In this document: positions 4,261-17,166 of the stretch, one piece after another
How the letters are laid out: every line of letters starts with the position of its first letter
Numbering within the stretch: position 1 is the first letter of the stretch
Assembly: GCA_017503105.1 (NCBI GenBank)
Contig: JAFVTS010000023.1
Location: 1 to 38,646, forward strand
DNA: 38,646 nucleotides
Source of the DNA: Clostridia bacterium
Lineage (GTDB): Bacteria > Bacillota > Clostridia > Oscillospirales > CAG-272
Reading direction: 5' to 3'
The notes under the pieces: generated by a model
The model's database searches: none
Seen by the model: the letters and a program-made list of their open reading frames with translations, nothing else
Told to the model about the DNA's origin: nothing
Made by a program: the position numbers and the translations under genes

Positions 4261-4351
4261 TTCCCCGTCAAGGAGAAAAAGTGGATACCAAGGCAAGAAG
4301 AGTTCTATATCTATAGCCATTCTTCGGTAGTTCTCTGAACGTAATACTAAG

Positions 4352-4402
4352 GGGGCTGTCTCAAACGCTCTGAAATTTGCATTTGAGACAGCCCCTTTTT
4401 TT
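4352..4402 (+). terminator. Strong hairpin with T-run, between the Rhs region and the VOR genes
   Basis: The 14-bp perfect arms 4352-4365 and 4382-4395 (GGGGCTGTCTCAAA) are followed by seven T on the plus strand. The T-run faces rightward transcription, while the flanking genes run leftward; read leftward the hairpin remains but its T-run is poor. It may end the gamma-subunit transcript as a hairpin or insulate against antisense reading. Confidence 0.7.
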
Positions 4403-4415
4403 ATTTTCGGTCAAA

Positions 4416-4955
4416 TTACTTTTTATAGTTCTTTCCGAGGGAAAGCGCTTTCATATTAAGTTCTTTGAGCGCCGCCTTCTTAGCGGGAACGAGGCTTTCC
4501 ACGACTGCCTCTGCTCCGTCAAAGGAGAGCTCGGGATGGTTTTCGAGAAGATGACCTACTATGATCATATTTGCAAGGGTTGCGATGCCCTCTTCCTTCG
4601 CCATCTGCGTTGCGGGAATATAGAAGACCTCAACGTCGGTGCGTTCGATCTTAAGGTCGATAAGAGAGGAATCTATATAGATCTGACCGCCGGGGGCGAC
4701 CGAGTCTACGTACTTCTGAAGAGAAGGAAGGTTCATAGCGATAAGAACGTCGGGCGTCGTGATGATGGGAGAGCCGACGGGATCATCCGAGAGGATGACG
4801 TTACAGTTTGCGGTACCTCCGCGCATTTCGGGGCCGTAAGACGGAAGCCAGGATACCTGAAGCTCCTCAACGAGTCCCTTGTACGCCAAGAATTTACCTG
4901 AGAACAGAATTCCCTGTCCACCGAAGCCCGCGATAAGGATCTGAGTAGTTTTCAT
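4416..4955 (-). CDS. 2-oxoacid:ferredoxin oxidoreductase, gamma subunit
   Basis: This encodes 179 residues. The N-terminus [20 protein letters not shown] carries the GFGGQG motif of the gamma (PorC/KorC/VorC) domain that holds the CoA-side part of the catalytic core. [16 protein letters not shown] is also family-typical. The start at 4955 is chosen because its ATG directly follows the beta-subunit stop (TAAGATG) with GAGGAGGG upstream. It is the last gene of the operon delta-alpha-beta-gamma. The full complex converts a 2-oxoacid plus CoA and oxidised ferredoxin to acyl-CoA and CO2, or the reverse. Substrate cannot be read from this subunit; the alpha subunit points to branched 2-oxoacids. 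Confidence 0.9.
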
Positions 4956-4956
4956 C

Positions 4957-5709
4957 TTATTTGCCCTCCTCTGCGCTTCTGTCCTTGTAAACGCCGATGG
5001 GATAGAAGGGGAGCATATCGCTCTCGACCCATTCAAGAGCAGCCTTAGGCGTCATACCCCAGTTGGTGGGGCAAGCGGAAACGACCTCAACGAGAGAGAA
5101 GCCCTTGCCGTTTATCTGATTTTCAAAAGCCTTCTTAATAGCCTTCTTCGCGTTCTTCACGTTCTTTACGTTGTTTACGGCAACGCGGGCTACGTACTCG
5201 GGGCCTTCAAGAGTTGCGAGCATCTCGCTGACTCTGATGGGCCAACCGCAATGATTTACGTCACGCCCGTAGGGAGACGTCTGAGTGACCTGACCGGGAA
5301 GGCTGGTGGGTGCCATCTGTCCGCCCGTCATACCGTAGATAGCGTTGTTTACGAAAATAACGGTAATATTCTCGTTTCTCGCCGCGGAATGAACGGTCTC
5401 CGCCATACCGATAGACGCAAGGTCGCCGTCACCCTGATAGGTGAAAACGACGTTATCGGGGCGGCAACGCTTAATGCCCGTGGCAACAGCGGGAGCTCTT
5501 CCGTGAGCCGCCTCTATCATATCACAAGCGAAATAATCGTATGCCATAACGGCGCATCCGACGGGAGCAACTCCGATAGCCTTTCCCTCAATACCGAGCT
5601 CATCAATGACCTCGGCTACAAGACGGTGAATGATACCGTGAGGGCAACCGGGACAGTAATGGAACGGAGCGTCTGTCAGGGATTTCGGTTTTTCAAATAC
5701 AACAGCCAT
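4957..5709 (-). CDS. 2-oxoacid:ferredoxin oxidoreductase, beta (TPP-binding) subunit
   Basis: This encodes 250 residues. It carries the N-terminal Cys motif CPGCPHG near residue 20, which starts the cluster-binding and TPP region, and the thiamine-diphosphate motif [10 protein letters not shown], followed by [15 protein letters not shown]. This subunit binds TPP-Mg and, with alpha, forms the site where the 2-oxoacid is decarboxylated or formed. An AAAGGAG site overlaps the end of the alpha gene, so translation is coupled. Length and motifs fit KorB/VorA-type beta subunits, which lack the long C-terminal extension of pyruvate enzymes. Confidence 0.93.
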
Positions 5710-5711
5710 TA

Positions 5712-6773
5712 TTAAAGCACTCCTTTCTTCGCGTTGCGAATGGACTCGAGGATTTCATCGGGAGAGGGGATCATACCGCCCGCGCGGTTGCAAAGAGAAA
5801 CGGGCTTCTTGCACTTCGTGGCAAGCTTTACGTCATCTATCATCTGACCCATACTGAGCTCAACCGATATAAACGAATTTACCTTCTCAGCCGCAGCTTC
5901 AAAAGCGGCGGTCGGGAACGGCCAGAGGGTGATGGGACGGATAAGACCGACCTTTATTCCCTCGTTTCTTGCGGCTACTACCGCGTTCTTTGCAACGCGT
6001 GAAGCAATACCGAAGGCAACGACGCATATCTCGGCGTCGTCCATCATATATTCCTCCCACATTGCCTCGTTCTTCTCTATCTCGGCGTATTTTTCAAAGC
6101 GCTCGAAATTCTTCTTCTCAAGCTCTTCGGGCTTAAGATAAAGAGAGTTTACGACGTTGTGCTTACGCTTGCACTCCGTGCCCGTAAGAGCCCAGGGCTT
6201 TTCGTAAGAATTTATCTCAACGTCCTCGAAGGATATAGGCTCCATCATCTGACCGATGGTTCCGTCAGCGAGGATCATAGAGGTCATACGGTATTTATCG
6301 GCAAGATCAAAGCCCTTGATAGTAAGGCTTGCCATCTCCTGCACGGATGCGGGAGCAAGAACGATCATACGGTAGTCACCGTGTCCGCCGCCCTTCGTTG
6401 CCTGGAAATAATCCGACTGAGAGGGCTGAATTCCGCCAAGACCGGGGCCGCCTCTTTGCACGTTTACGACGAGTGCGGGAATATCCGAGCCCGCTATGTA
6501 GCTGAGTCCCTCGGTTTTAAGGGAGATTCCGGGGCTTGACGAGGACGTCATAACGCGCATTCCCGCCGCTGACGCGCCGTAAACCATATTTATAGACGCT
6601 ATCTCGCTTTCCGCCTGAAGGAATACGCCGCCGATCTTGGGCATTTTCTTCGCCATATAAGCGGCGATCTCCGTCTGGGGAGTGATGGGATAACCGAAGT
6701 AGTGTCGGCAACCTGCTCTGATCGCAGCCTCCGCGATAGCCTCGTTGCCCTTCATTAAAATTCTTTCTGCCAT
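5712..6773 (-). CDS. vorB: 2-oxoacid:ferredoxin oxidoreductase, alpha subunit (VOR type)
   Basis: This encodes 353 residues starting [20 protein letters not shown]. The start at 6773 is fixed by an AAGGAGG 6 nt upstream, which overlaps the ferredoxin gene's TAA. The phrases [31 protein letters not shown] and [17 protein letters not shown] are those of alpha subunits annotated as 3-methyl-2-oxobutanoate dehydrogenase VorB, including the conserved Glu and Ser/Gly stretch of the pyrimidine-binding domain. It should act on 2-oxoisovalerate and related branched 2-oxoacids, though 2-oxoglutarate use cannot be excluded from sequence alone. The nearby acyl-CoA synthetases and branched-chain T-boxes strengthen the branched-chain reading. 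Confidence 0.88.
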
Positions 6774-6783
6774 AATAGCCTCC

Positions 6784-6990
6784 TTACTTTTCAACCGTGA
6801 TTATGCAATCCGGACACATAGTCGCGCAAAACGCGCATCCGATGCACTTTTCCTGATCCTGCATATATGCGGGAGAATATCCCTTACCGTTAAGCTTATC
6901 CTCCGCGATAGCAAGACATTTCTTCGGGCAAGCGTCAACGCACAAGCCACAGCCCTTACACATATCCGTGTTAAAAGTTACCTTTGCCAT
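6784..6990 (-). CDS. 2-oxoacid:ferredoxin oxidoreductase, delta (2x[4Fe-4S]) subunit
   Basis: This encodes 68 residues with two CxxCxxCxxxC sets: Cys 11, 14, 17, 21 and Cys 49, 52, 55, 59 (each set's fourth Cys followed by Pro). It carries electrons between the TPP site and soluble ferredoxin. Placing a small delta ferredoxin first in the four-gene set is common for KOR/VOR enzymes. The stop codon is part of the alpha gene's ribosome site. An AGGAGG-type site precedes its own start. Confidence 0.93.
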   Translation of the reverse strand: MAKVTFNTDMCKGCGLCVDACPKKCLAIAEDKLNGKGYSPAYMQDQEKCIGCAFCATMCPDCIITVEK

Positions 6991-7022
6991 TTATATTCCT
7001 CCTTGATTATCAGAGCTTGCCG

Positions 7023-7700
7023 TCACGATATATCATCGGGCAAGTCAAAAATTTTCTTTTGCAGTACCATAGGCATCACACGAAGCCCCGTAAGTTCCTT
7101 AGCCACCGACTCTTCAGCCGTGTGCATAAAGATCTCAAGCCCCGTCCTCTCGCTGAGCCGCTCGACGAAATCAAGCGAATCAAGAACCGTCGCGGGCGTC
7201 GTTTCTTTGCCGAGATTTGAGTTATTGACTATGCAATTGAACTTCAATCCGCACGCCGCCTCTATCTCCTTCATAACCTCGACGGCATCGTCGACGGTTG
7301 ACGTCAGGGGGCGGTAGCAATTCACGACGAACGCCATACGGTAATCGTTCTCAGCCTTTATTGCCTCGGCATATCTGCCTAAAGCGTATGCGCCTCTGTC
7401 ATCTCCGCCAATATCCATAATTCCGAGCGTGGACTTATCCTGAACCAAGCTGTAGCTCTCCGCGGGAAGCGCGGGAAGATCTACGTTGCTGTTGGCGTAC
7501 TGAGGAGAAACGAGGCGGATACCCGCCGAGAGAAGCTCCTTTTCGCTGTCCTTCGTTCTGAAATACGGATTGACGATATCGAGGTCGGCGATACAGACCT
7601 TGTTTCCTTCTTTCGCGAGCAAGAGGGCGTAATTGACGGCAATATTCGTCTTGCCGCTGCCGTAATGACCCGCGAAAAGCGTCAATCTTTTGTGTTCCAT
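7023..7700 (-). CDS. P-loop ATPase of the CobQ/MinD/ParA group
   Basis: This encodes 225 residues. A Walker A motif GHYGSGKT lies at about residues 11-18, a Walker B-like strand CIADLDIVNPYFRTKD follows, and GIMDIGGDD looks like switch II. It belongs to the SIMIBI-type nucleotide-binding proteins near MinD, CobQ and Mrp, but lacks the second Lys of a deviant Walker A, so ParA-type partitioning is unlikely. It lies between an acyl-CoA synthetase and the VOR delta subunit with short gaps and should be co-transcribed. A role in cofactor or Fe-S loading of the oxidoreductase is possible but unproven. The ribosome site (AAGAGA) is weak. Confidence 0.75.
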   Translation of the reverse strand: MEHKRLTLFAGHYGSGKTNIAVNYALLLAKEGNKVCIADLDIVNPYFRTKDSEKELLSAGIRLVSPQYANSNVDLPALPAESYSLVQDKSTLGIMDIGGDDRGAYALGRYAEAIKAENDYRMAFVVNCYRPLTSTVDDAVEVMKEIEAACGLKFNCIVNNSNLGKETTPATVLDSLDFVERLSERTGLEIFMHTAEESVAKELTGLRVMPMVLQKKIFDLPDDIS

Positions 7701-7716
7701 AATATTCTCTTACCGC

Positions 7717-7736
7717 CCGTGCCCATCACGGCACGG
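7717..7736 (-). other. Small intergenic hairpin between synthetase and ATPase genes
   Basis: The inverted repeat CCGTGCC/GGCACGG (7717-7723 with 7730-7736) lies in the 44-nt gap. On the leftward transcript no T-run follows, so it may adjust mRNA stability or partial read-through rather than terminate. Confidence 0.4.
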
Positions 7737-7744
7737 ATGTTTTT

Positions 7745-10027
7745 TTAAAGTTGCTTTCTTATTATCTTTCCGCTCGTCGTCTTGGGAAGGCTCTCGCGGA
7801 ATTCTACTATTCTCGGATACTTATAAGGCGCGGTCTTGGACTTGACGTAATTCTGAATTTCTTTTTTAAGCTCGTCCGTGCCCTCGGTGCCTTTTACGAG
7901 AACTATGCTCGCCTTTACGACCTGACCTCTTATCTCGTCGGGAGCCGCGGAAACGCCGCATTCAAGGACGTACGGAAGCTCCATAATGACGTTTTCTATC
8001 TCAAACGGACCTATTCTGTAACCCGAGGACTTAATGACGTCGTCAGCACGTCCTACGTACCAAAGGAATCCGTCCTCGTCCATCCAGGCAACGTCACCCG
8101 TGTGGTAATATCCGTCGCGCCAGGTCTCCTTCGTGACCTCCTCGTTCGCCTCGTAAGCGTAAGCAAGTCCCGGAGGAAGCCCCTTGGATATATCAATGCA
8201 TATCTCGCCGTTTTCGCCGCGAGCGACTTCCTCGCCCTCGGTGTTAAGCAAATGCACGTTGTAAAGCGGAACGGGCTTGCCCATAGAGCCCATCTTGTGG
8301 CTGCCGCCCGAGAGGTTGCCGATAATAAGCGTGCTCTCCGACTGACCGAAGCCCTCCATAATCTTAAGGCCCGTAGACTTCTCAAACTGACGGAAGACCT
8401 CGGGGTTGAGCGCCTCGCCCGCGGTGGACGCGTGCTCTATGCTCGAAAGATCGTATTTTGAAATATCCTGCTTTATAAGCATTCTGTACATCGTAGGGGG
8501 CGCGCAGAACGTCGTTATGCCGTACTTGGCAAAGAGAGGTAGTATATTCTCTGCATTGAATCTGTCGAAATCGTATACAAAGTTTGCCGCCTCGCAAAGC
8601 CACTGACCGTAAAGCTTGCCCCACATTGCCTTCGCCCAGCCCGTGTCCGAGATGGTGAAGTGAAGCCCCTCGGGATTGACCTGATGCCAATACTTTGCGG
8701 TGATAAAGTGACCGAGAGGGTATTTATAGTTGTGCGCCGCGATCTTGGGATAACCCGACGTGCCCGACGTGAAGAACATAAGCATAGGATCGCTTCCGCA
8801 AGGAGCGTCGTCCGCTCTTTCGTAACGGCTGCTGTACATAGCGTATTCGTCGTTGAAGGAATGCCAGCCTTCTCTCTTCTTGCCAACGATTATCTTATAG
8901 GCAAGACCGGGGCACGCCGCCGCTGCCTTATCAACGGCATCCGCGACATCGCCGTCGGACGTACAGAGAATAGCTTTTATATTTCCTATTTCAAATCGGT
9001 ATTTGAAGTCCTTCTCAAGAAGCTGATTCGGAGCGGGAATAGCTACCGCGCCGAGCTTGTGAAGACCGAGTATGGCAAACCAGAACTGATAGTGGCGCTT
9101 AAGCACCAGCATAACTCTGTCGCCCCTCTTGATGCCGAGGGATTTGAAGTAGTTTGCCGCCCTCGCGGACTCCTTTTTCATATCGCTGAACGTAAAGCGC
9201 CTTTCCGTTCCGTCCTCGCTGACGTGGAGCATAGCAAGCTTATCGGGCTTACGTCTGCCGAGTGCGTCAACGACGTCAAAGGCAAAGTTGAACTTCTCCT
9301 CGTTCTTGAACGCTATCTTCGTAAGAACGCCGTTCTCCTCCGTAGGGATGATGAAATCGTTATAAATTCTGCGCTCGGAATCGTCTCCGTGGCGCTTGGT
9401 GGCAACGGAGAGCGTCGCCGCCTCCTCGCCAAGTCTTGCCGCCTGGTTGCGCAAAACTATGGCGTAGAACGTACAGTCCGCACCGTTTACGGCTATCATA
9501 CCGTGAGGTGTGCCCGAATCGTAGTAAATACAGTCACCGGGGCCGAGTATCTCGCTGTGATCGCCGATCTGGATCTTCATATGACCCTTGATCACGATAT
9601 CGCACTCCTGCCCTTCGTGAGTCACAAGCTCGATAGTCTGATCGTCGTTGCCCTTATAATTAAGCTCCATATAGAGAGGCAAGGCGATACGGTTACGGAA
9701 GCCCGACGCAAGGTTGAAGCCTATCATATTATGGGCTTCCTCTATCCTCTGTCCCTCTCCTCTGCGCGTTAAAGCGTAAGAACGAAGCTTAGGGCTCTTT
9801 CCCTCAAGAATATCGCCCATATCAACGCCGAAGCTCAGGGTGCAATGATAGAGAAACGCGATGCTCAGATTGCGGTTGCCCGCCTCGCACTCCTCGTACT
9901 CTTCAACGGTAGTACCTGTGCGCTCCGCCATTTCCTCGACGGAGAGTCCCGTTACAAGACGCAACTCCTTGATACGTGCCGCTATTTGTCTAATTTTAGT
10001 TTCCATTCCGTTTAAAACAGGTTCCAC
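7745..10027 (-). CDS. XRE-cupin-acyl-CoA synthetase fusion, paralog 2
   Basis: This encodes 760 residues in three parts. Residues ~10-75 form an XRE-type helix-turn-helix (IKELRLVTGLSVEEMAERTG). Residues ~110-190 form a cupin (PGDCIYYDSGTPHGM). Residues ~255-760 form an AMP-forming acyl-CoA synthetase with the P-loop FFTSGTSGYPK near residue 415-425, the GEALNPEVF region, YHTGDVAW, the hinge GRADDVIKSSGYRIG and the C-terminal catalytic Lys in TTSGKI. XRE-cupin is a common small-molecule-sensing repressor layout; here it is joined to the enzyme. The ligase resembles medium/short-chain (ACSM-like) enzymes. The GTG start at 10027 has AGAGGT upstream. The promoter at 10098-10127 drives it. It probably co-transcribes with the ATPase and VOR genes. 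Confidence 0.88.
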   Translation of the reverse strand: MEPVLNGMETKIRQIAARIKELRLVTGLSVEEMAERTGTTVEEYEECEAGNRNLSIAFLYHCTLSFGVDMGDILEGKSPKLRSYALTRRGEGQRIEEAHNMIGFNLASGFRNRIALPLYMELNYKGNDDQTIELVTHEGQECDIVIKGHMKIQIGDHSEILGPGDCIYYDSGTPHGMIAVNGADCTFYAIVLRNQAARLGEEAATLSVATKRHGDDSERRIYNDFIIPTEENGVLTKIAFKNEEKFNFAFDVVDALGRRKPDKLAMLHVSEDGTERRFTFSDMKKESARAANYFKSLGIKRGDRVMLVLKRHYQFWFAILGLHKLGAVAIPAPNQLLEKDFKYRFEIGNIKAILCTSDGDVADAVDKAAAACPGLAYKIIVGKKREGWHSFNDEYAMYSSRYERADDAPCGSDPMLMFFTSGTSGYPKIAAHNYKYPLGHFITAKYWHQVNPEGLHFTISDTGWAKAMWGKLYGQWLCEAANFVYDFDRFNAENILPLFAKYGITTFCAPPTMYRMLIKQDISKYDLSSIEHASTAGEALNPEVFRQFEKSTGLKIMEGFGQSESTLIIGNLSGGSHKMGSMGKPVPLYNVHLLNTEGEEVARGENGEICIDISKGLPPGLAYAYEANEEVTKETWRDGYYHTGDVAWMDEDGFLWYVGRADDVIKSSGYRIGPFEIENVIMELPYVLECGVSAAPDEIRGQVVKASIVLVKGTEGTDELKKEIQNYVKSKTAPYKYPRIVEFRESLPKTTSGKIIRKQL

Positions 10028-10097
10028 GTCGTACCTCTTTTGTTGTTTTCGGCTTAAAAACGTATTTTACTCGGAAAAGCCGTATTTGATAAAGTAT

Positions 10098-10127
10098 ATT
10101 ATATCAAATTTCAACCCCGATTGTCAA
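10098..10127 (-). promoter_or_regulatory. Promoter for paralog 2 and the VOR genes
   Basis: On the minus strand TTGACA (10122-10127) and TATAAT (10098-10103) are separated by 18 nt. The leader to the GTG start is about 60 nt and shows no T-box, so these genes can be expressed apart from the T-box upstream. Confidence 0.75.
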
Positions 10128-10172
10128 TATATTTAAAGGATTTTATTATATTTTAATTTTTTACGTCGAATT

Positions 10173-12440
10173 TTAAAGCTTATTTCTCATTATCTTGCCG
10201 CTGATGGTCTTGGGCAAATCCTTGCGGAACTCGACGATTCTCGGATACTTGTAGGGTGCCGTATGCTGCTTGACGTAATTCTGGATCTCCTTTTTAAGCT
10301 CCTCCGAGGGCTCCGTGCCGTTTACGAGCACGATGCAAGCCTTGACGACCTGACCTCTGACCTCGTCGGGGGCGGCGCAAACACCGCACTCAAGAACGTA
10401 CGGAAGCTCCATAATCGTCGACTCTATTTCGAACGGACCTATGCGATAGCCCGAGGACTTGATGACGTCATCGGCACGTCCGACGTACCAATAATATCCG
10501 TCCTCATCGCGCCAAGCAAGGTCGCCCGTGTGATATAAGCCGTCGTGCCAAACGTTATCCGTCGCCTCTTTATTAAGGTAATAACCGAGGAAAACGCCGC
10601 AAGCGCATCTCGGCTCGGTGCGAATAACGATCTCGCCGTTTACGCCGTCCGCAACGGGGTTGCCGTCAACGTCGACAAGGTCGATGCCGTAACCGGGGAC
10701 GGGCTTGCCCATTGCACCGGGCTTAAGCTGTGTGCCGACGAGGTTTGCGATTCCGAGGGTCATCTCGGTCTGTCCAAAGCCCTCTGCTATACGAAGACCC
10801 GTTGCCTTTTCAAACTGATAAAAGACCTCGGGGTTGAGCGCCTCACCCGCGGTTGTTGCGTGGCGGATGGAGGAAAGATCGTACTGACTTATATCCTGCT
10901 TGATGAGCATTCTGTACATAGTGGGAGGCGCGCAGAAGGTAGTGATCTTGTATTTCGCGAACATAGGAAGTATCTTCTGCGAGTCGAATCTGTCAAAGTC
11001 GTAGGTGAAGACCGCACCCTCGCAGAGCCATTGACCGTAAAGCTTGCCCCAAAGAGCCTTGCCCCAACCCGTTTCGGAAATGGTGAAGTGAAGTCCGTCC
11101 TGCTCGCAGCGATGCCAATATTTAGCGGTAACGTAATGACCGAGGGCGTACTTGTAGGAATGCATTGCCATTTTGGGATAGCCCGTGGTGCCGGAGGTAA
11201 AGAGCATAAGCATAGGATCGTTTCCGCAAGGAGCGTCCGCCTCGCGCACGTATCTGCGGCTGAAGAGAACGTACTCTTTATCGTAGTTATGCCAGCCTTC
11301 CTTATCCGCTCCGACGATGATCTTCGTCAAGGAAAGTCCGCAGCTCTTCTCAGCAAGCTCCGCCTGATTTGCAGTATCTCCGTCCGCCGTGCAGATTATG
11401 GCACTAACGCCCGCGGCGGTAAAGCGATAGCTGAAATCGTGCTCAACGAGCTGATTCGTAGCGGGGATGGCGATAGCGCCGAGCTTGTGAAGACCGAGTA
11501 TTGCGAACCAGAACTGATAATGACGCTTGAGAACAACCATAACTCTGTCACCGCGCTTTATACCGAGGGACTTGAAGTAGTTCGCGCTCTGAGAGGACGC
11601 GTCCTTCATATCCTTGAAGGTAAACCTGCGCTCGGTCATATCGTTTGAGATATGCAGCATAGCAAGCTTCTCGGGGTCCTTGCGCGCTATTTCATCAACC
11701 GTGTCAAAGGCGAAGTTGTACTTGTCTTCATTATTATAATTAACGTCAAGAAGGATACCGTTTTCATCCTCGACGGGCTTGATAAACTTCTCGCAAAGAA
11801 GAGGCTTATGAGCCGCCGCGTGCTCAGCGGCGCTGATGTACATAGGCTGGTCGGTGCTGTCGCTTGCCATAATCATAGCCAAGAACACGCAGTCCTCACC
11901 GTCGACGGCGATCATACCGTGGGGAGTTGACGACTTGAAGAAAACGCTGTCCCCCTCGTGAAGGACCTCCTCGCGGTCGCCGATGCGAATGCGTAAAGAG
12001 CCCTTTATAACAAGGTCAAATTCCTGACCCGCGTGCGTTACCGTATTGATAGGAAGGCTTTGAAGCTCTTTGGAATATTCATATGTTACCCAATAAGGAG
12101 TCGCAAGCTTCTGACGGAACAGCGGCGCCATATCCTGAATAGTGATGCCGTCCTCGCTTGCCGTGGTAAGACCCTCGCCGCGTCTGGTGACGGTATACCC
12201 CGTCAGCTTTGCGCTGTGACCTTCAAGAATATCCGTGATCTCTATGCCGTAAACCTTAGCGCATTTATGCATAAAAGTAAATGGCAGATCGACCGTTCCC
12301 GATTCGTATGAAACGTAAGTAGCTTCCTCAAGATCGGTGAGCTCAGCCATTTTAGCCGTGCTGTAACCGAGGATCTGACGCATTTCGCGAATTCGGAGCG
12401 CTATCCTTTTCAGCTGATTGGTGTCAGATGGGGTTGTCAT
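10173..12440 (-). CDS. XRE-cupin-acyl-CoA synthetase fusion, paralog 1, T-box controlled
   Basis: This encodes 755 residues from ATG 12440 (AGGAGG 8 nt upstream; a TTG further up is not needed). It has the same three-part layout as paralog 2: HTH (IREMRQILGYSTAKMAELTD), cupin (EGDSVFFKSSTPHGMIAV) and AMP-forming ligase (LFTSGTTGYPKMAMHSYKY, then YHTGDLAWRDEDG, GRADDVIKSSGYRIG and KTISGKIMRNKL). The ligase halves of the two paralogs are very similar and the sensor halves clearly less so, which suggests different ligands or operators. It is the first gene behind a T-box. The likely reaction is carboxylate + ATP + CoA to acyl-CoA + AMP + PPi; a short branched acid is the inferred substrate. Confidence 0.88.
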   Translation of the reverse strand: MTTPSDTNQLKRIALRIREMRQILGYSTAKMAELTDLEEATYVSYESGTVDLPFTFMHKCAKVYGIEITDILEGHSAKLTGYTVTRRGEGLTTASEDGITIQDMAPLFRQKLATPYWVTYEYSKELQSLPINTVTHAGQEFDLVIKGSLRIRIGDREEVLHEGDSVFFKSSTPHGMIAVDGEDCVFLAMIMASDSTDQPMYISAAEHAAAHKPLLCEKFIKPVEDENGILLDVNYNNEDKYNFAFDTVDEIARKDPEKLAMLHISNDMTERRFTFKDMKDASSQSANYFKSLGIKRGDRVMVVLKRHYQFWFAILGLHKLGAIAIPATNQLVEHDFSYRFTAAGVSAIICTADGDTANQAELAEKSCGLSLTKIIVGADKEGWHNYDKEYVLFSRRYVREADAPCGNDPMLMLFTSGTTGYPKMAMHSYKYALGHYVTAKYWHRCEQDGLHFTISETGWGKALWGKLYGQWLCEGAVFTYDFDRFDSQKILPMFAKYKITTFCAPPTMYRMLIKQDISQYDLSSIRHATTAGEALNPEVFYQFEKATGLRIAEGFGQTEMTLGIANLVGTQLKPGAMGKPVPGYGIDLVDVDGNPVADGVNGEIVIRTEPRCACGVFLGYYLNKEATDNVWHDGLYHTGDLAWRDEDGYYWYVGRADDVIKSSGYRIGPFEIESTIMELPYVLECGVCAAPDEVRGQVVKACIVLVNGTEPSEELKKEIQNYVKQHTAPYKYPRIVEFRKDLPKTISGKIMRNKL

Positions 12441-12517
12441 AACTTTTTCCTCCTGTAACAATAAAGTTTGTTTGTATGTGAAATTTATTTAAGCTTAATA
12501 AAAAAGCCTATAAAAAA

Positions 12518-12765
12518 CAAAAAAATCTCAAGAAATAATTCTTGAGACGAGCAAATATACCCGCGGTACCACTCAAATTGCGATAAGCGCCACTTTAGAC
12601 TCCAACAAGTCCTATCCCTTAACGCGGGCAACGTAAGACCCTAACAAATTTGCTCGGATCTTCAACTCGGAAGTGATGGGTACTTGGCTATTAGCTATCG
12701 GCTCGCACCTACCGCCGACTCTCTGTGGGCTTTTTCACCGTACCGTCTTCGTCACAGTTTTTATG
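12518..12765 (-). promoter_or_regulatory. T-box leader, probable isoleucine specifier
   Basis: The minus-strand leader has the T-box sequence TGGTACCGCGG (12571-12561), a terminator stem TCTCAAG/CTTGAGA (12526-12547) with a U-run, and a stem I with the CAGAGAG bulge and GGTAGGTG apical motif (12697-12725). I fold the specifier loop between stems GAAG/CTTC and GGTAC/GTACC, leaving C-ATC-A on its 3' strand, so the codon read is ATC (Ile) at 12677-12675. The T-box itself is certain; the codon is a hand fold. Uncharged tRNA would stabilise the antiterminator and turn on the gene at 10173-12440. Confidence 0.88.
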
Positions 12766-12770
12766 AAATG

Positions 12771-12799
12771 ATTATAACACATTTTTTTTCAAATGTCAA
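12771..12799 (-). promoter_or_regulatory. Consensus promoter of the Ile T-box transcript
   Basis: On the minus strand a perfect TTGACA (12794-12799) and a perfect TATAAT (12771-12776) lie 17 nt apart, just upstream of stem I. Confidence 0.9.
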
Positions 12800-12923: not shown

Positions 12924-12949
12924 ATATTCAACTGAAAATTTCATTTCAA

Positions 12950-13212
12950 AGACAATGACGGAAATCAAGCCCTTTTCGGATGCTTCAGAGAGTCGGCGGT
13001 AGGTGTGAGCCGATGCGGATGGGTTGGGCGCTCTTCTTCCCGAGTCGGTCTTGTCAAAGCGAAAGCGAGTAATGGGACACGGTTGCCACCGTTATATGGC
13101 AGAGCCTTGTTTGAGGCTTTTAAGAGATTCCCTACTCTTTGGGAATAATCAGGGTGGTACCGCGATTTAATTTCGTCCCTGGAGCTGTGTTGTCAGCTTC
13201 AGGGCTTTTTTA
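12950..13212 (+). promoter_or_regulatory. T-box leader, probable leucine specifier
   Basis: The plus-strand T-box has CAGAGAG and GGTAGGTG apical motifs (12986-13014), the T-box sequence TGGTACCGCG (13155-13164) and a terminator CCCTGGAGCTG/CAGCTTCAGGG with six T (13177-13211). Stem pairs GGAA/TTCC (12960-12963 with 13037-13040) and GCCC/GGGC (12969-12972 with 13026-13029) leave a 7-nt strand GCTCTTC, whose codon is CTC (Leu, 13031-13033). CTC is a usual specifier of leucine-biosynthesis T-boxes in Clostridia, and the downstream gene is isopropylmalate-synthase-like. The specifier is a hand fold. Confidence 0.88.
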
Positions 13213-13249: not shown

Positions 13250-14656
13250 ATGAAACAGATCAGAATCAGCGACGCAACGATGAAGCAGATCTCCGAGGGC
13301 TTCAGCCTTTCGTTCAAGGAGAAGATAGAGTTTGCCAAGCTTCTTGACAAGCTCGGAGTTGACGTAATAGAGCTCGAAGGCATAGAAAACGTCCGCATAG
13401 ATTCGCTCCGAATCAAATCCATAGCGGCAGCGGTCAGCGACAGCACGGTCGCCGTTCCCGTAGAATTGAACGCCGAGAGCGTCGATGCCGCTTGGTGCTC
13501 AGTTAAGCAGGCGAAGCGCCCGAGACTCCAGGTCCCCGCACCCACGAGCGCCGTTCAGATAGAATACCTTTATCATAAAAAACCCGACGCTATGATAGCG
13601 GCAATAGAGGAAACTATCAAGAAGTGTGCCGCCCTTTGCCCCGACGTTGAATTTATAGCGGGCGACGCTACGAGAAGCGAGCAGACCTTCCTTACGTCGG
13701 CTTTAAAGACCGCTATTGACGCGGGAGCTACGACCGTTACGCTCTGCGATACCGCGGGAACTATGCTTCCCAACGAATTTGCGGACTTCATCAAGCTCCA
13801 GTATAAGGAGCTTCCCGAGCTTAAGAACGTTACCCTCGGCATTTGCTGCTCCGATACCATCTCTATGGCGGACGCGTGCGCTATCGCCGCCGTCACGGAG
13901 GGCGCAGGGCAGATATGCGCGGCAGCATACCCTCTGGGGCTTGCGTCCTTGGCAAGCGTTGCCCGCGTTTTCGCGGCAAAGTCAGACTCGTTGAAAGCTG
14001 CCTGCAACGTACGCACGACACAGCTTACCAGAATTATAGATCAAGTGAATTGGATGTGCCAGCCCGGAAAGAAAAATTCTTACAGCGGTACGGCAGACCA
14101 CGACGGAAACGACGTTTTTCTTACCGCTCACGACACCCCCGAGGCGGTTACCGTTGCGGTAACGAAGCTCGGTTACGACCTTTCGGAGGAGGACTGTGCC
14201 AAGGTTTACAGCGCGTTTATTCAGATCGCCGCGAAGAAGGAAAAAGTCGGACTCAAGGAGCTCGACGCAATAGTCGCCTCCTCCGCTATGCAAGTTCCCG
14301 CCACCTACAAGCTTGACACTTACGTAATTACCTCGGGCAACACCATTTCCGCTACCGCGCACATCAAGCTCGTCAAAAACGATCAGCCCGTAGAGGGCGT
14401 TTATATCGGTGACGGCTCAATAGACGCCGCATTCCAAGCTATCGAAAAGATCACGGGCTGTCATTACGAGCTTGACGACTTCCAGCTTCAAGCCGTTACG
14501 GAAGGGCGCGAGGCTATGGGACAGACCGTGGTCAAGCTCCGCTCAGGCGGCAAGGTATACTCGGGCAGAGGTATCTCCACCGACATCGTCGGCGCGGGTA
14601 TCCAGGCTTATCTCAGCGCACTTAACAAGATAATCTACGAGGAGGAAGTAGAATGA
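13250..14656 (+). CDS. Isopropylmalate-synthase-like protein with divergent active site
   Basis: This encodes 468 residues: a DRE-TIM metallolyase barrel (~1-270), a linker, and a C-terminal LeuA-type regulatory domain (~350-465; GDGSIDAAFQAIEKI, GRGISTDIVGAGIQAY). AAAGGAG precedes the ATG. The family's catalytic residues are replaced. The Arg-Asp of the usual DTTLRDG is Lys12-Gln13, the catalytic Glu before DATRS is Gly138, and the HxH metal pair is Ile198-Cys-Cys200. The frame and fold motifs are intact, so this is a diverged family member, not decay. It may have lost aldol condensation and act as a leucine sensor or a different enzyme. It overlaps the next gene by 4 nt and is under the Leu T-box. 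Confidence 0.82.
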   Translation: MKQIRISDATMKQISEGFSLSFKEKIEFAKLLDKLGVDVIELEGIENVRIDSLRIKSIAAAVSDSTVAVPVELNAESVDAAWCSVKQAKRPRLQVPAPTSAVQIEYLYHKKPDAMIAAIEETIKKCAALCPDVEFIAGDATRSEQTFLTSALKTAIDAGATTVTLCDTAGTMLPNEFADFIKLQYKELPELKNVTLGICCSDTISMADACAIAAVTEGAGQICAAAYPLGLASLASVARVFAAKSDSLKAACNVRTTQLTRIIDQVNWMCQPGKKNSYSGTADHDGNDVFLTAHDTPEAVTVAVTKLGYDLSEEDCAKVYSAFIQIAAKKEKVGLKELDAIVASSAMQVPATYKLDTYVITSGNTISATAHIKLVKNDQPVEGVYIGDGSIDAAFQAIEKITGCHYELDDFQLQAVTEGREAMGQTVVKLRSGGKVYSGRGISTDIVGAGIQAYLSALNKIIYEEEVE

Positions 14657-17166
14657 AGCTCTCATTTTCAACACGCGGCTGGCCGACCCTCTCTTGGGAC
14701 GAAATGCTCGAAACGGCGATAGATATGGGCTTTTCGGGCGTAGAGGTCTACAATCTTCAAAGCTTTAACGCCCTCACGGACCGCGGCGGTCCCTTCCATA
14801 AATATAATACTGCCGCAACGGCGCGCGATCTGCGCGAAAAGCAGCTCTCCGTTCCCTGCTTCGACACCTCTTGCGATATATCCGCAGACGAAACGGTCAT
14901 TGACACCGTAAAATCCCTTATGGAAACGGCTCACGGCGCACGCGTTCCTTACGTCGTGGTTTGCGCTCTTAACGACAAAGAGGATGCCGTTTATTCCGCT
15001 CTTACATCTCTTTTGCCGACAGCCGAAGAGCTTGACGTCACTATACTCGTCAAAACGAGCGGCATCTATTCAGATACCGCAAGGCTCCGCAATATGCTCG
15101 ACAGATTTGCGAGCGACAATCTCGCGGTCCTTTGGGATATATCCCATCCTTACAGAGATAACGGCGAGTCGGGTGACGAGACGATAAAGAATCTCGGCTG
15201 CTACGTCAAGCACGTTCATATGCGCGATTCTGACGACGCGGGAGCTTATCAGCTCATCGGCGAAGGAACTATGCCCATCGACGACGTTATGCGCGCGCTT
15301 TCATCCGTAAATTACGATAATTTCATTTCACTCGAATGGAAGCCCGAGTGGCTCGACGACCTCAAGGATCCCGAGGTCATATTCCCCTACTTCGTAAACT
15401 ATATGTCAAGGTTCTCCTCGACGAGAGATATGAAGAAAAAGCTCTACTTCAACCACGACGGAACGGGTCAGTATATCTGGAAGAAGGACGAGCTTATCGA
15501 TCTGACCTTCTCCGAGGTTCTTGACCGCGTTGCCGACGAGTTTCCCGATCAGTATTGCTTCAAGTACACGACCCTCGACTACACCCGTACCTACGCTGAG
15601 TTCCGCGAGGACGTGGACCGCTTTGCAAGAGCGCTCGTTTCCCTCGGTGTAAAGGCGGGCTCAAAGGTTGCGATATGGGCGACGAACCTGCCCGCTTGGT
15701 ATATAACGTTCTGGGCAACGACGAAGCTCGGAGCCATCCTCGTCACCGTGAATACCGCGTACAAGATCCACGAGGCTGAGTACCTTCTCAGACAGTCGGA
15801 CACTCACACTCTCGTTATGATAGACAGCTGTCTTGACTCTAACTATCAGCAGATCATAAACGAGCTTTGCCCCGAAATAAAGGACACGAAGCCGGGAGAG
15901 CCTTTACATTCCAAAAGGCTTCCCTTCCTTCGCAACGTCATCACGGTAGGATTTAAGCAGAAGGGCTGCCTTACCTTTGACGAGGCAATGGCGAGATACA
16001 AGCTCGTAAGCTCGGAGCACGTGGCGAGAATGGCGGCAGAGGTCCGTCCCTCCGACGTTTGCAATATGCAGTACACCTCGGGCACCACGGGCTTCCCGAA
16101 GGGCGTTATGCTGACGCACTACAACGTCGTTAACAACGGTAAATGTATCGGCGACCGTATGGGTCTTTCCACGGCTGACCGTATGATGATCCAGGTTCCT
16201 ATGTTCCACTGCTTCGGAATGACCCTTTCTATGACGTCGTCTATGACGCACGGAGCAACGATGTGCCCTATGCCCTACTTCTCCGCTAAATCGTCGCTTG
16301 CCTGCATCAATCAGGAAAAGATCACCTGCTTCAACGGCGTTCCCACTATGTTTATCGCGATGTTCAACCACCCGAATTACAGAAGCACCGATTTTTCACA
16401 TATGAGAACGGGCATTATGGCGGGTGCGGGATGCCCCCCCGAGCTTATGCGCCGCGCCGCGCGTCCCGACGAGATGAATATGACGGGCATCGTCAGCGTT
16501 TACGGTCAGACGGAGTGCGCCCCGGGAAACACTATGAGCTCTTGGACGGACTCTCTTGAAGTGCGTACGGAGACCGTAGGATACGCGTTCCCCCACGTGC
16601 GCTGCAAGATAGTAGACCCCGAAACGGGCGAGGAGGTCGGTCCCGGTGTCAACGGCGAGTTCTGCGCTAAGGGCTACAACACGATGAAGGGCTATTATAA
16701 AATGCCTATGGCGACTAAGGATACGATAGACGAGGACGGATGGCTCCATTCGGGCGACCTTGCCTCCCGCGACGAGGACGGTAATTACAGGATCACGGGC
16801 CGCCTTAAGGATATGATCATCCGCGGCGGCGAGAATATCTATCCTAAGGAAATAGAGGAATTCATCTACACGCATCCTATGACCAAGGACGTTCAGGTCA
16901 TCGGCGTTCCCGACAAGAAATACGGCGAGGAAATTATGGCTTGCATAATTTTGAAGGAACCGGGAAGCGTCAGCGCCGAGGAGATGATGGAATACATCAA
17001 AGCAAGTATGGCTCGTCACAAGGTTCCGAAGTACATCGAATTCGTCGACAGCTTCCCGATGAACGCAGCGGGAAAGATACTCAAATACAAGATGAGAGAA
17101 GACGCGGCGGCTCGCCTCGGTCTTGTCGGTGACGGCTCAAACACCGCAGGCAACGGCAAAGCCTGA
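14653..17166 (+). CDS. TIM-barrel isomerase-like / acyl-CoA synthetase fusion
   Basis: This encodes 837 residues. Residues 1-~255 are a xylose-isomerase-like TIM barrel of the sugar phosphate isomerase/epimerase (AP endonuclease 2) group: MKLSFSTRGWPTLSWDEM, GFSGVEVYN, VKHVHMRDSD and a late ISLEWKPEW. Residues ~270-820 are an AMP-forming acyl-CoA synthetase of the FadD/CaiC type: YTSGTTGFPKG at 474-484, VYGQTECAPGN, GWLHSGDLASRDEDG, GRLKDMIIRGGENIYPKEIE from 716, and the catalytic Lys808 in AAGKILKYK. Joining these two is unusual and no link peptide start lies between them. It is co-transcribed with the IPMS-like gene through an ATGA overlap. The acid activated is unknown; regulation suggests a leucine-related branched acid. 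Confidence 0.85.
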   Translation: MKLSFSTRGWPTLSWDEMLETAIDMGFSGVEVYNLQSFNALTDRGGPFHKYNTAATARDLREKQLSVPCFDTSCDISADETVIDTVKSLMETAHGARVPYVVVCALNDKEDAVYSALTSLLPTAEELDVTILVKTSGIYSDTARLRNMLDRFASDNLAVLWDISHPYRDNGESGDETIKNLGCYVKHVHMRDSDDAGAYQLIGEGTMPIDDVMRALSSVNYDNFISLEWKPEWLDDLKDPEVIFPYFVNYMSRFSSTRDMKKKLYFNHDGTGQYIWKKDELIDLTFSEVLDRVADEFPDQYCFKYTTLDYTRTYAEFREDVDRFARALVSLGVKAGSKVAIWATNLPAWYITFWATTKLGAILVTVNTAYKIHEAEYLLRQSDTHTLVMIDSCLDSNYQQIINELCPEIKDTKPGEPLHSKRLPFLRNVITVGFKQKGCLTFDEAMARYKLVSSEHVARMAAEVRPSDVCNMQYTSGTTGFPKGVMLTHYNVVNNGKCIGDRMGLSTADRMMIQVPMFHCFGMTLSMTSSMTHGATMCPMPYFSAKSSLACINQEKITCFNGVPTMFIAMFNHPNYRSTDFSHMRTGIMAGAGCPPELMRRAARPDEMNMTGIVSVYGQTECAPGNTMSSWTDSLEVRTETVGYAFPHVRCKIVDPETGEEVGPGVNGEFCAKGYNTMKGYYKMPMATKDTIDEDGWLHSGDLASRDEDGNYRITGRLKDMIIRGGENIYPKEIEEFIYTHPMTKDVQVIGVPDKKYGEEIMACIILKEPGSVSAEEMMEYIKASMARHKVPKYIEFVDSFPMNAAGKILKYKMREDAAARLGLVGDGSNTAGNGKA

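Follow-up and report, generated by a model that had tools for sequence, protein, structure and literature searches.

The stretch analysed here, contig JAFVTS010000023.1 of a Clostridia bacterium (38,646 nucleotides; hereafter the window), carries two paralogous genes for AMP-forming acyl-CoA synthetases, syn1 and syn2, together with the genes of a VOR-type 2-oxoacid oxidoreductase; a leucine T-box, a leuA-like gene and the fusion gene timAL lie divergent from syn1-syn2-vor. The window is the entire contig C3 of a 44-contig, 2.6-Mb draft genome (G000), which is 96.5% complete. We consider it probable, at roughly 0.8, that this locus serves biosynthetic salvage, in which 2-methylbutyrate, isobutyrate and probably isovalerate are reductively carboxylated on the way to isoleucine, valine and leucine. 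Short branched acids of the gut would be activated by the AMP-forming synthetases, 2-methylbutyrate by Syn1, isobutyrate by Syn2 and isovalerate probably by TimAL; a single VOR common to these ligases would then use reduced ferredoxin to carboxylate the acyl-CoAs reductively to 2-oxoacids, and the 2-oxoacids would be transaminated by a branched-chain aminotransferase. The T-box of each synthetase gene would respond to uncharged tRNA for whichever amino acid is eventually made from the product of that synthetase; in the window the isoleucine and leucine T-boxes are kept, and the valine T-box would have been replaced by a bare promoter and possible read-through. This reading draws directly on the T-boxes, their specifiers as given by the sequence, the gene order, its conservation, and the co-occurrence of genes.

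The syn1 gene (positions 10173–12461, minus strand; likely start ATG at 12440) is preceded by a complete T-box unit on the same strand: a promoter, TTGACA-17-TATAAT, at 12771–12799 (12/12 consensus match), a T-box leader at 12540–12764, and an intrinsic terminator hairpin followed by a T-run at 12525–12548, identified by the terminator scan. The leader scored 98 bits against Rfam RF00230 (gathering score 93, E 1.5e-20), and Stem I pairing placed the isoleucine specifier ATC at 12677–12675 in the context ATC-A-CTTCC, the same as in the T-box of ileS (named by eye) in this genome. The initial annotation of the window had proposed an isoleucine T-box before an acyl-CoA synthetase, with a second synthetase and VOR genes alongside, and both proposals agree with the Rfam score, the specifier, the promoter and the terminator on the one hand and with the domain and family matches of syn2, vorD, vorB, vorA and vorC on the other. 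A promoter scan of the window returned 14 promoter-like sites versus 3.8 expected, with 12/12 matches only at 12771–12799 and at the syn2 promoter (10098–10127). The computed fold of the syn1 leader RNA was not used, its z score being -2.5, with 2 of 200 shuffles as good and a lowest-energy structure that was not a T-box.

To place the window among its relatives, 121 sources were surveyed: the window; 40 stretches drawn from 39 family genomes, out of 79 in which a synthetase matched; and the best 80 contigs of a named collection. Removal of two duplicates left 119 distinct loci (L-numbers denote loci and G-numbers genomes). The nearest labelled relatives are metagenome genomes recorded as 'Clostridia' or 'Oscillospiraceae', mainly from the colon, cecum, rectum or rumen of goat, sheep, deer, yak and buffalo. 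That labelled records come mainly from the guts of ruminants and other herbivores was counted in favour of the salvage reading. T-box cores were located by pattern, and 18 non-identical core matches, chance hits included, had no target gene within 450 bases. Where the sequence upstream extended to 500 bases or more, a core was found before 101 of 110 syn1, 52 of 74 syn2 and 52 of 62 leuA-like genes; none was found before the other 9 of the 110 syn1 genes, and in loci L099, L101, L102 and L162 the pattern located a core before neither syn1 nor syn2. At the gathering threshold, Rfam returned just two T-boxes in eight relatives; by E-value, it returned seven in four relatives, at 70–119 bits, and none in L078.

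The specifiers were read by a script, whose first version left 20 of the 215 syn1, syn2 and leuA-like leaders uncalled and miscalled four (two syn1 and two syn2); these 24 leaders were printed and read by eye, with the expected codon known to the reader. Among non-identical leaders, the script called isoleucine for 103 of 104 syn1 leaders, the single other call (TCC in L132) being ATC by eye, and all 53 leuA-like leaders carried a leucine codon. By eye, the 54 syn2 leaders comprised 51 valine, two leucine and one isoleucine reading, the true exceptions being L075 and L076 (CTG) and L087 (ATC), and the L087 synthetase was placed with the isoleucine group on the synthetase tree. L075 and L076 hold the only leucine-reading syn2 leaders, and these head a one-strand run that continues with vor, the aminotransferase gene, leuA-like and timAL. 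The last two genes have no T-box of their own there, which may explain the leucine specifier. Since specifiers are near-constant within each paralogue over the 119 distinct loci, it appears very improbable that the same machinery handles aromatic or straight-chain acids and that the branched-chain specifiers were inherited by chance. Macs-type enzymes do adenylate many acids (PMC10455477; this and the other papers given by PMC number are cited from parts of their text), but the phenylalanine T-boxes of the relatives head different ligases, one of them PaaK-like.

The synthetases themselves divide along the same line. In a FastTree phylogeny of 170 synthetase rows, for which seven specifier labels were by-eye readings, a single branch with support of 100 divides the isoleucine rows from the rest, and the specifier amino acid switches twice over the whole tree. 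A comparison of 101 isoleucine-type rows with 67 syn2-type rows (48 with a valine T-box and 19 without a T-box) revealed a single ligase-domain column that is fixed and different between the two sides: glycine in 101/101 isoleucine-type rows (Gly467 in the 762-residue frame of syn1) and alanine in 67/67 syn2-type rows (Ala465 in Syn2), as well as in both leucine-specifier rows. Six ligase-domain columns distinguish syn1 from syn2 when the level is set at 80%, so that the glycine/alanine column is the sharpest but not the sole one. The best PDB match of Syn1 was 3etc (613 bits), the Methanosarcina enzyme MacsMa, and in the alignment, with residue numbers offset from motif III, Gly467 falls on a glycine four residues before Trp259 of MacsMa. 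MacsMa thus has glycine at the diagnostic position, and the tryptophan of its alternate acyl pocket is present in Syn1 as Trp471. In MacsMa, Trp259 is critical for acyl binding, and 2-methylbutyrate is the preferred substrate (PMC10455477). Syn1 is named here as a predicted 2-methylbutyryl-CoA synthetase and Syn2 as a predicted isobutyryl-CoA synthetase, in which the smaller pocket left by alanine would suit the smaller acid. The best NCBIfam model for both is MbcS (NF047394), and judged by sequence, they would work like MbcS although they are not classed as such. Both proteins matched AMP-binding, AMP-binding_C and Cupin_2 above cut-off, and their helix-turn-helix (HTH) matches lay below the Pfam cut-offs. 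At the 85% level, nine columns separate syn1 from syn2, and eight of them lie N-terminal of residue ~240, in the HTH/cupin region, a hint that the fused regulator differs between the two in its ligands or operators.

The syn2 gene (7745–10027, minus strand) encodes a protein 60% identical to Syn1 and groups with the synthetases under valine T-boxes, but, unlike most of its relatives, it has no T-box. It follows a promoter, TTGACA-18-TATAAT, at 10098–10127 on the minus strand (12/12 match), exactly where the initial annotation had placed a promoter for syn2 and the VOR genes. No third full T-box core was found in the window. Among 68 distinct tandem-synthetase loci, 46 have a T-box between the two genes and 22, including the window, have none; syn1 and syn2 are no more than 76 bases apart in six of the 22. 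The window syn2 belongs to a supported tree group of 28 rows, 17 without a T-box and 11 with a valine one, and is therefore descended from a valine-controlled gene. The clade of the window has, on this evidence, lost the valine T-box before syn2, and a perfect sigma-70-type promoter stands alone. Because no terminator-like site was listed by the scan between syn1 and syn2, read-through from the former to the latter is possible, and the earlier caveat that T-box control of VOR depends on such read-through agrees with these observations. An inverted repeat, ATTTGATA-N10-TATCAAAT, was noticed by eye at 10080–10110, where it spans the -10 box of the syn2 promoter; it is perhaps an operator for the HTH domains.

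The VOR genes follow on the minus strand: vorD (6784–6990), encoding a two-cluster ferredoxin subunit with Fer4 and family matches, vorB (5712–6773; POR_N and PFOR_II), vorA (4957–5709), encoding the thiamine pyrophosphate-binding subunit (TPP_enzyme_C), and vorC (4416–4955), encoding the gamma subunit (POR domain). VorB scored 556 bits against NF005507 (cut-off 399), while VorD, VorA and VorC match 2-oxoacid oxidoreductase models below the NCBIfam equivalog cut-offs; with the VorB model and the thiamine pyrophosphate-binding, gamma and ferredoxin subunits all present, the complex is identified as a VOR on its sequence features. Just past vorC, at 4350–4400, a strong inverted repeat with a T-run on the plus strand was seen by eye and may end the operon. 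Between syn2 and vorD lies a gene that the initial annotation had not listed (7023–7700, minus strand), encoding a MinD/ParA-like P-loop ATPase with a CbiA Pfam match and a conserved GHYGSGKT P-loop; it adjoins vorD in 93 of the 119 loci and could conceivably have a part in driving or assembling VOR.

A branched-chain aminotransferase gene occurs in 58 of the 92 loci with vorB, invariably on the same strand, and in 51 of these 58 no more than 250 bases separate it from vorC or the MinD-like gene; three members of the aminotransferase set pass the NCBIfam cut-off, including the unlinked copy of the window genome. In L081, a T-box reading GTA heads a run of the aminotransferase, MinD-like and vor genes. 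This arrangement bears on two other readings. The nearest functional name of the synthetases, MbcS, denotes an enzyme that supports branched fatty acid synthesis in Staphylococcus aureus (PMC10026030), and the synthetases could likewise feed such synthesis with FabH primers, the T-box sensing a lack of the primer-source amino acid. We regard this as improbable, for it leaves unexplained both why VOR and aminotransferase genes share these operons (vorB in 92 loci, with the aminotransferase in 58 of them) and why the paralogues carry separate isoleucine and valine T-boxes. The aminotransferase would also fit a catabolic operon, in which transamination of amino acids would yield oxoacids for VOR to oxidise to acyl-CoA with reduction of ferredoxin, before the acyl-CoA is split; VOR is reversible and works oxidatively in peptide fermenters such as Pyrococcus. 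Such a role is quite improbable on three counts: T-boxes increase expression when charged tRNA runs short, the opposite of what a catabolic operon would need; AMP-forming synthetases consume ATP to activate their acids; and genomes with VOR tend to be without ketol-acid reductoisomerase (KARI). The earlier view that the operon supplies an amino acid and does not burn it thus gains from the valine T-boxes on the syn2 genes of relatives, from the aminotransferase in VOR operons and from the VOR genomes without ilvC, all of which point to synthesis. Returning to salvage, the VOR set most likely serves valine, and probably leucine too, at least as much as isoleucine.

The leucine arm was absent from the initial annotation, although its T-box (12946–13183, plus strand) is the stronger of the two by Rfam (108.5 bits against RF00230, gathering score 93). 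The codon is CTT at 13033–13035 by the pairing used, or CTC at 13031–13033 if the pairing is shifted, and specifies leucine in both cases; a terminator-like hairpin was found by the scan at 13177–13204. Downstream on the same strand are the gene of a LeuA-like protein (13250–14656), with HMGL-like and LeuA_dimer domains (PF08502, 104.8 bits), and timAL (14653–17166), whose domain matches indicate a xylose-isomerase-like TIM barrel fused to an AMP-forming ligase. The LeuA-like protein has lost the catalytic and metal-binding motifs. In 63 aligned rows (of 64 extracted, one of which held a stop), the position that we take to be the metal-binding aspartate is aspartate in none, the presumed catalytic arginine (the pair being RD of TLRDG) is arginine in six, and of the two histidines of HxH, to which we assign a similar role, the first is present in one row and the second in none. 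The leuA-like gene adjoins timAL in 66 of the 119 loci. The LeuA-like protein could be a leucine-sensing partner of TimAL, the latter being a putative isovaleryl-CoA synthetase; if it does sense leucine, it would represent a novel type of regulator. Isovalerate is a poor substrate of S. aureus MbcS, which activates 2-methylbutyrate and isobutyrate (PMC10026030), and this fits the use of a different ligase for the leucine arm.

Phenylalanine T-boxes (TTC) were observed before other ligases of the relatives, at L088:1034 and L089:10727 (by eye) and at L108:16022 and L113:21564 (script), and could represent an aromatic counterpart of the same logic. The L088 ligase is PaaK-like (TIGR02155, 538 bits, cut-off 646), and its neighbour, judged by eye, is an ACT-type protein. 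In the window genome itself, an indolepyruvate oxidoreductase alpha gene (TIGR03336, over cut-off) adjoins an AMP-forming ligase gene on contig C30 (L050), possibly an aromatic analogue.

The window genome keeps a complete-looking ilvA-ridA-ilvBNCD cluster (C21) under its own isoleucine T-box, and the route is therefore a salvage one here for isoleucine and valine. The initial annotation, which saw in the locus a route for branched-chain amino acid synthesis, is supported as to the route itself, with two corrections: the wider service of VOR given above as most likely, and the salvage role that the route has here for isoleucine and valine. No KARI match was found in two genomes of the same genus, G022 and G085, which have VOR and timAL; the cluster in the window genome may have been retained or acquired. 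For leucine the situation is different. Besides KARI, the window genome has a single gene of the isocitrate/isopropylmalate dehydrogenase type, which stays below every NCBIfam cut-off, and no LeuC-sized frame. Its HMGL-like genes number three: the degenerate leuA-like gene, a second of oxaloacetate-decarboxylase type, and a third, near an aconitase gene, that we take to encode a Re-citrate synthase (no NCBIfam match at 1e-50). The canonical route to leucine thus appears to be missing, as far as a draft genome can show.

Across the 118 family genomes, VorB was detected in 71, KARI in 55, timAL-like genes in 71 (63 as the fusion, after removal of eight ligase-only matches), and LeuC-like frames in at least 46, among the matches listed. 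The table was compiled by hand, with LeuC assigned by frame length (inferred from the match count in G102, and at a contig end in G113), and its synthetase column, made with a cut of its own, holds 69 of the 79 genomes tallied. Among the 88 better genomes, 36 had VOR without KARI, 17 both, 26 KARI without VOR and 9 neither (p 1.7e-4); the fusion alone was found in 40, both fusion and LeuC in 4, LeuC alone in 33 and neither in 11, LeuC again being taken from among the matches listed (p 2.5e-10). With one genome per genus, the association between the fusion ligase and LeuC holds (p 6e-7).

Several observations weigh against the salvage reading, in which the substrates, the direction of the reaction, and the roles of TimAL and the LeuA-like protein are those we infer. 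Owing to its ilvA-ridA-ilvBNCD cluster, the window genome needs no branched-acid route for isoleucine or valine, and VOR and KARI occur together in 17 of the 88 better genomes. The association between them is weak with one genome per genus (p 0.043), and both presence/absence tests ignore phylogeny. The MbcS cut-off of 850 bits is unmet by Syn1 (432.9) and Syn2 (425.5). By script, 45 of the 54 non-identical syn2 leaders read valine, but two of these calls (L109 and L112, both leaders GTC by eye) were at wrong sites; six others (L062, L067, L068, L114, L125 and L136) are valine by eye and not by script. On the T-boxes of the window genome with a recognisable target, the second version of the script was right in 5 of 8 cases (ileS, tyrS, trpB, metB/metA and ilvA) and wrong for valS, serS (off by one) and thrS; several targets, such as ileS, were named by eye, but not valS, trpB or ilvA. 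The ninth T-box of this genome (lrp/aminotransferase) offers no expected specifier against which the script could be scored.

A fuller proposal, to which we give somewhat less than an even chance as a whole, is that isoleucine, valine and leucine T-boxes each switch on the matching ligase, all feeding one VOR and one aminotransferase; that the glycine/alanine change in the pocket sets 2-methylbutyrate against isobutyrate; and that a dead LeuA acts as the leucine-sensing partner of a TIM-barrel/isovaleryl-CoA ligase fusion that, across a large family of gut Clostridia, replaced leuABCD. The role of branched-chain volatile acids as growth factors of rumen bacteria has been recognised since about 1962. 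The locus would supply a candidate gene set for the bacterial branched-acid pathway known from the rumen since the 1960s, in which the regulatory RNA of each ligase gene predicts the substrate and the predicted specificity switch is narrowed to one residue. It could help to predict which uncultured gut bacteria depend on the branched acids of others, and it bears on isoacid feeding and culture media.

The chemistry is thus old, while the gene set and the correspondence between codon and ligase were not found described in the literature searched. No description of T-boxes before VOR or branched acyl-CoA synthetase genes was found in open-access literature, a search that covered neither supplements nor two T-box surveys listed among the references of PMC3766115 (Vitreschak 2008 and Gutierrez-Preciado 2009); a term search of the main texts of PMC3766115 and PMC2494555, supplements not covered, returned no mention of acyl-CoA or oxidoreductase. 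Rumen anaerobes form leucine from isovalerate, valine from isobutyrate, and isoleucine from 2-methylbutyrate, according to labelling work of Allison, Robinson and Bryant in 1962–1971 (cited in PMC7356843), and the proposed chemistry, the habitat and the acids are the same here. However, that work rests on labelling, whereas the present proposal concerns uncultured Clostridia and takes the form of a candidate gene set whose T-boxes are amino-acid-specific. Methanobrevibacter ruminantium is likewise thought to make isoleucine from 2-methylbutyrate by reductive carboxylation, but it is an archaeon, and no T-box is named in the text seen (PMC2812497). The ligase domain of Syn1 and Syn2 is common to S. 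aureus MbcS and Methanosarcina MacsMa (PDB 3ETC), to which the present proteins add HTH and cupin domains, and MbcS serves fatty acid synthesis (PMC10026030). Finally, the supply of branched-chain amino acids under T-boxes is shared with the ilv-leu operons of Bacillota (PMC2494555, PMC12452182); in those operons the T-boxes control de novo genes, whereas here they stand before ligase and VOR genes, with one specifier for each ligase.

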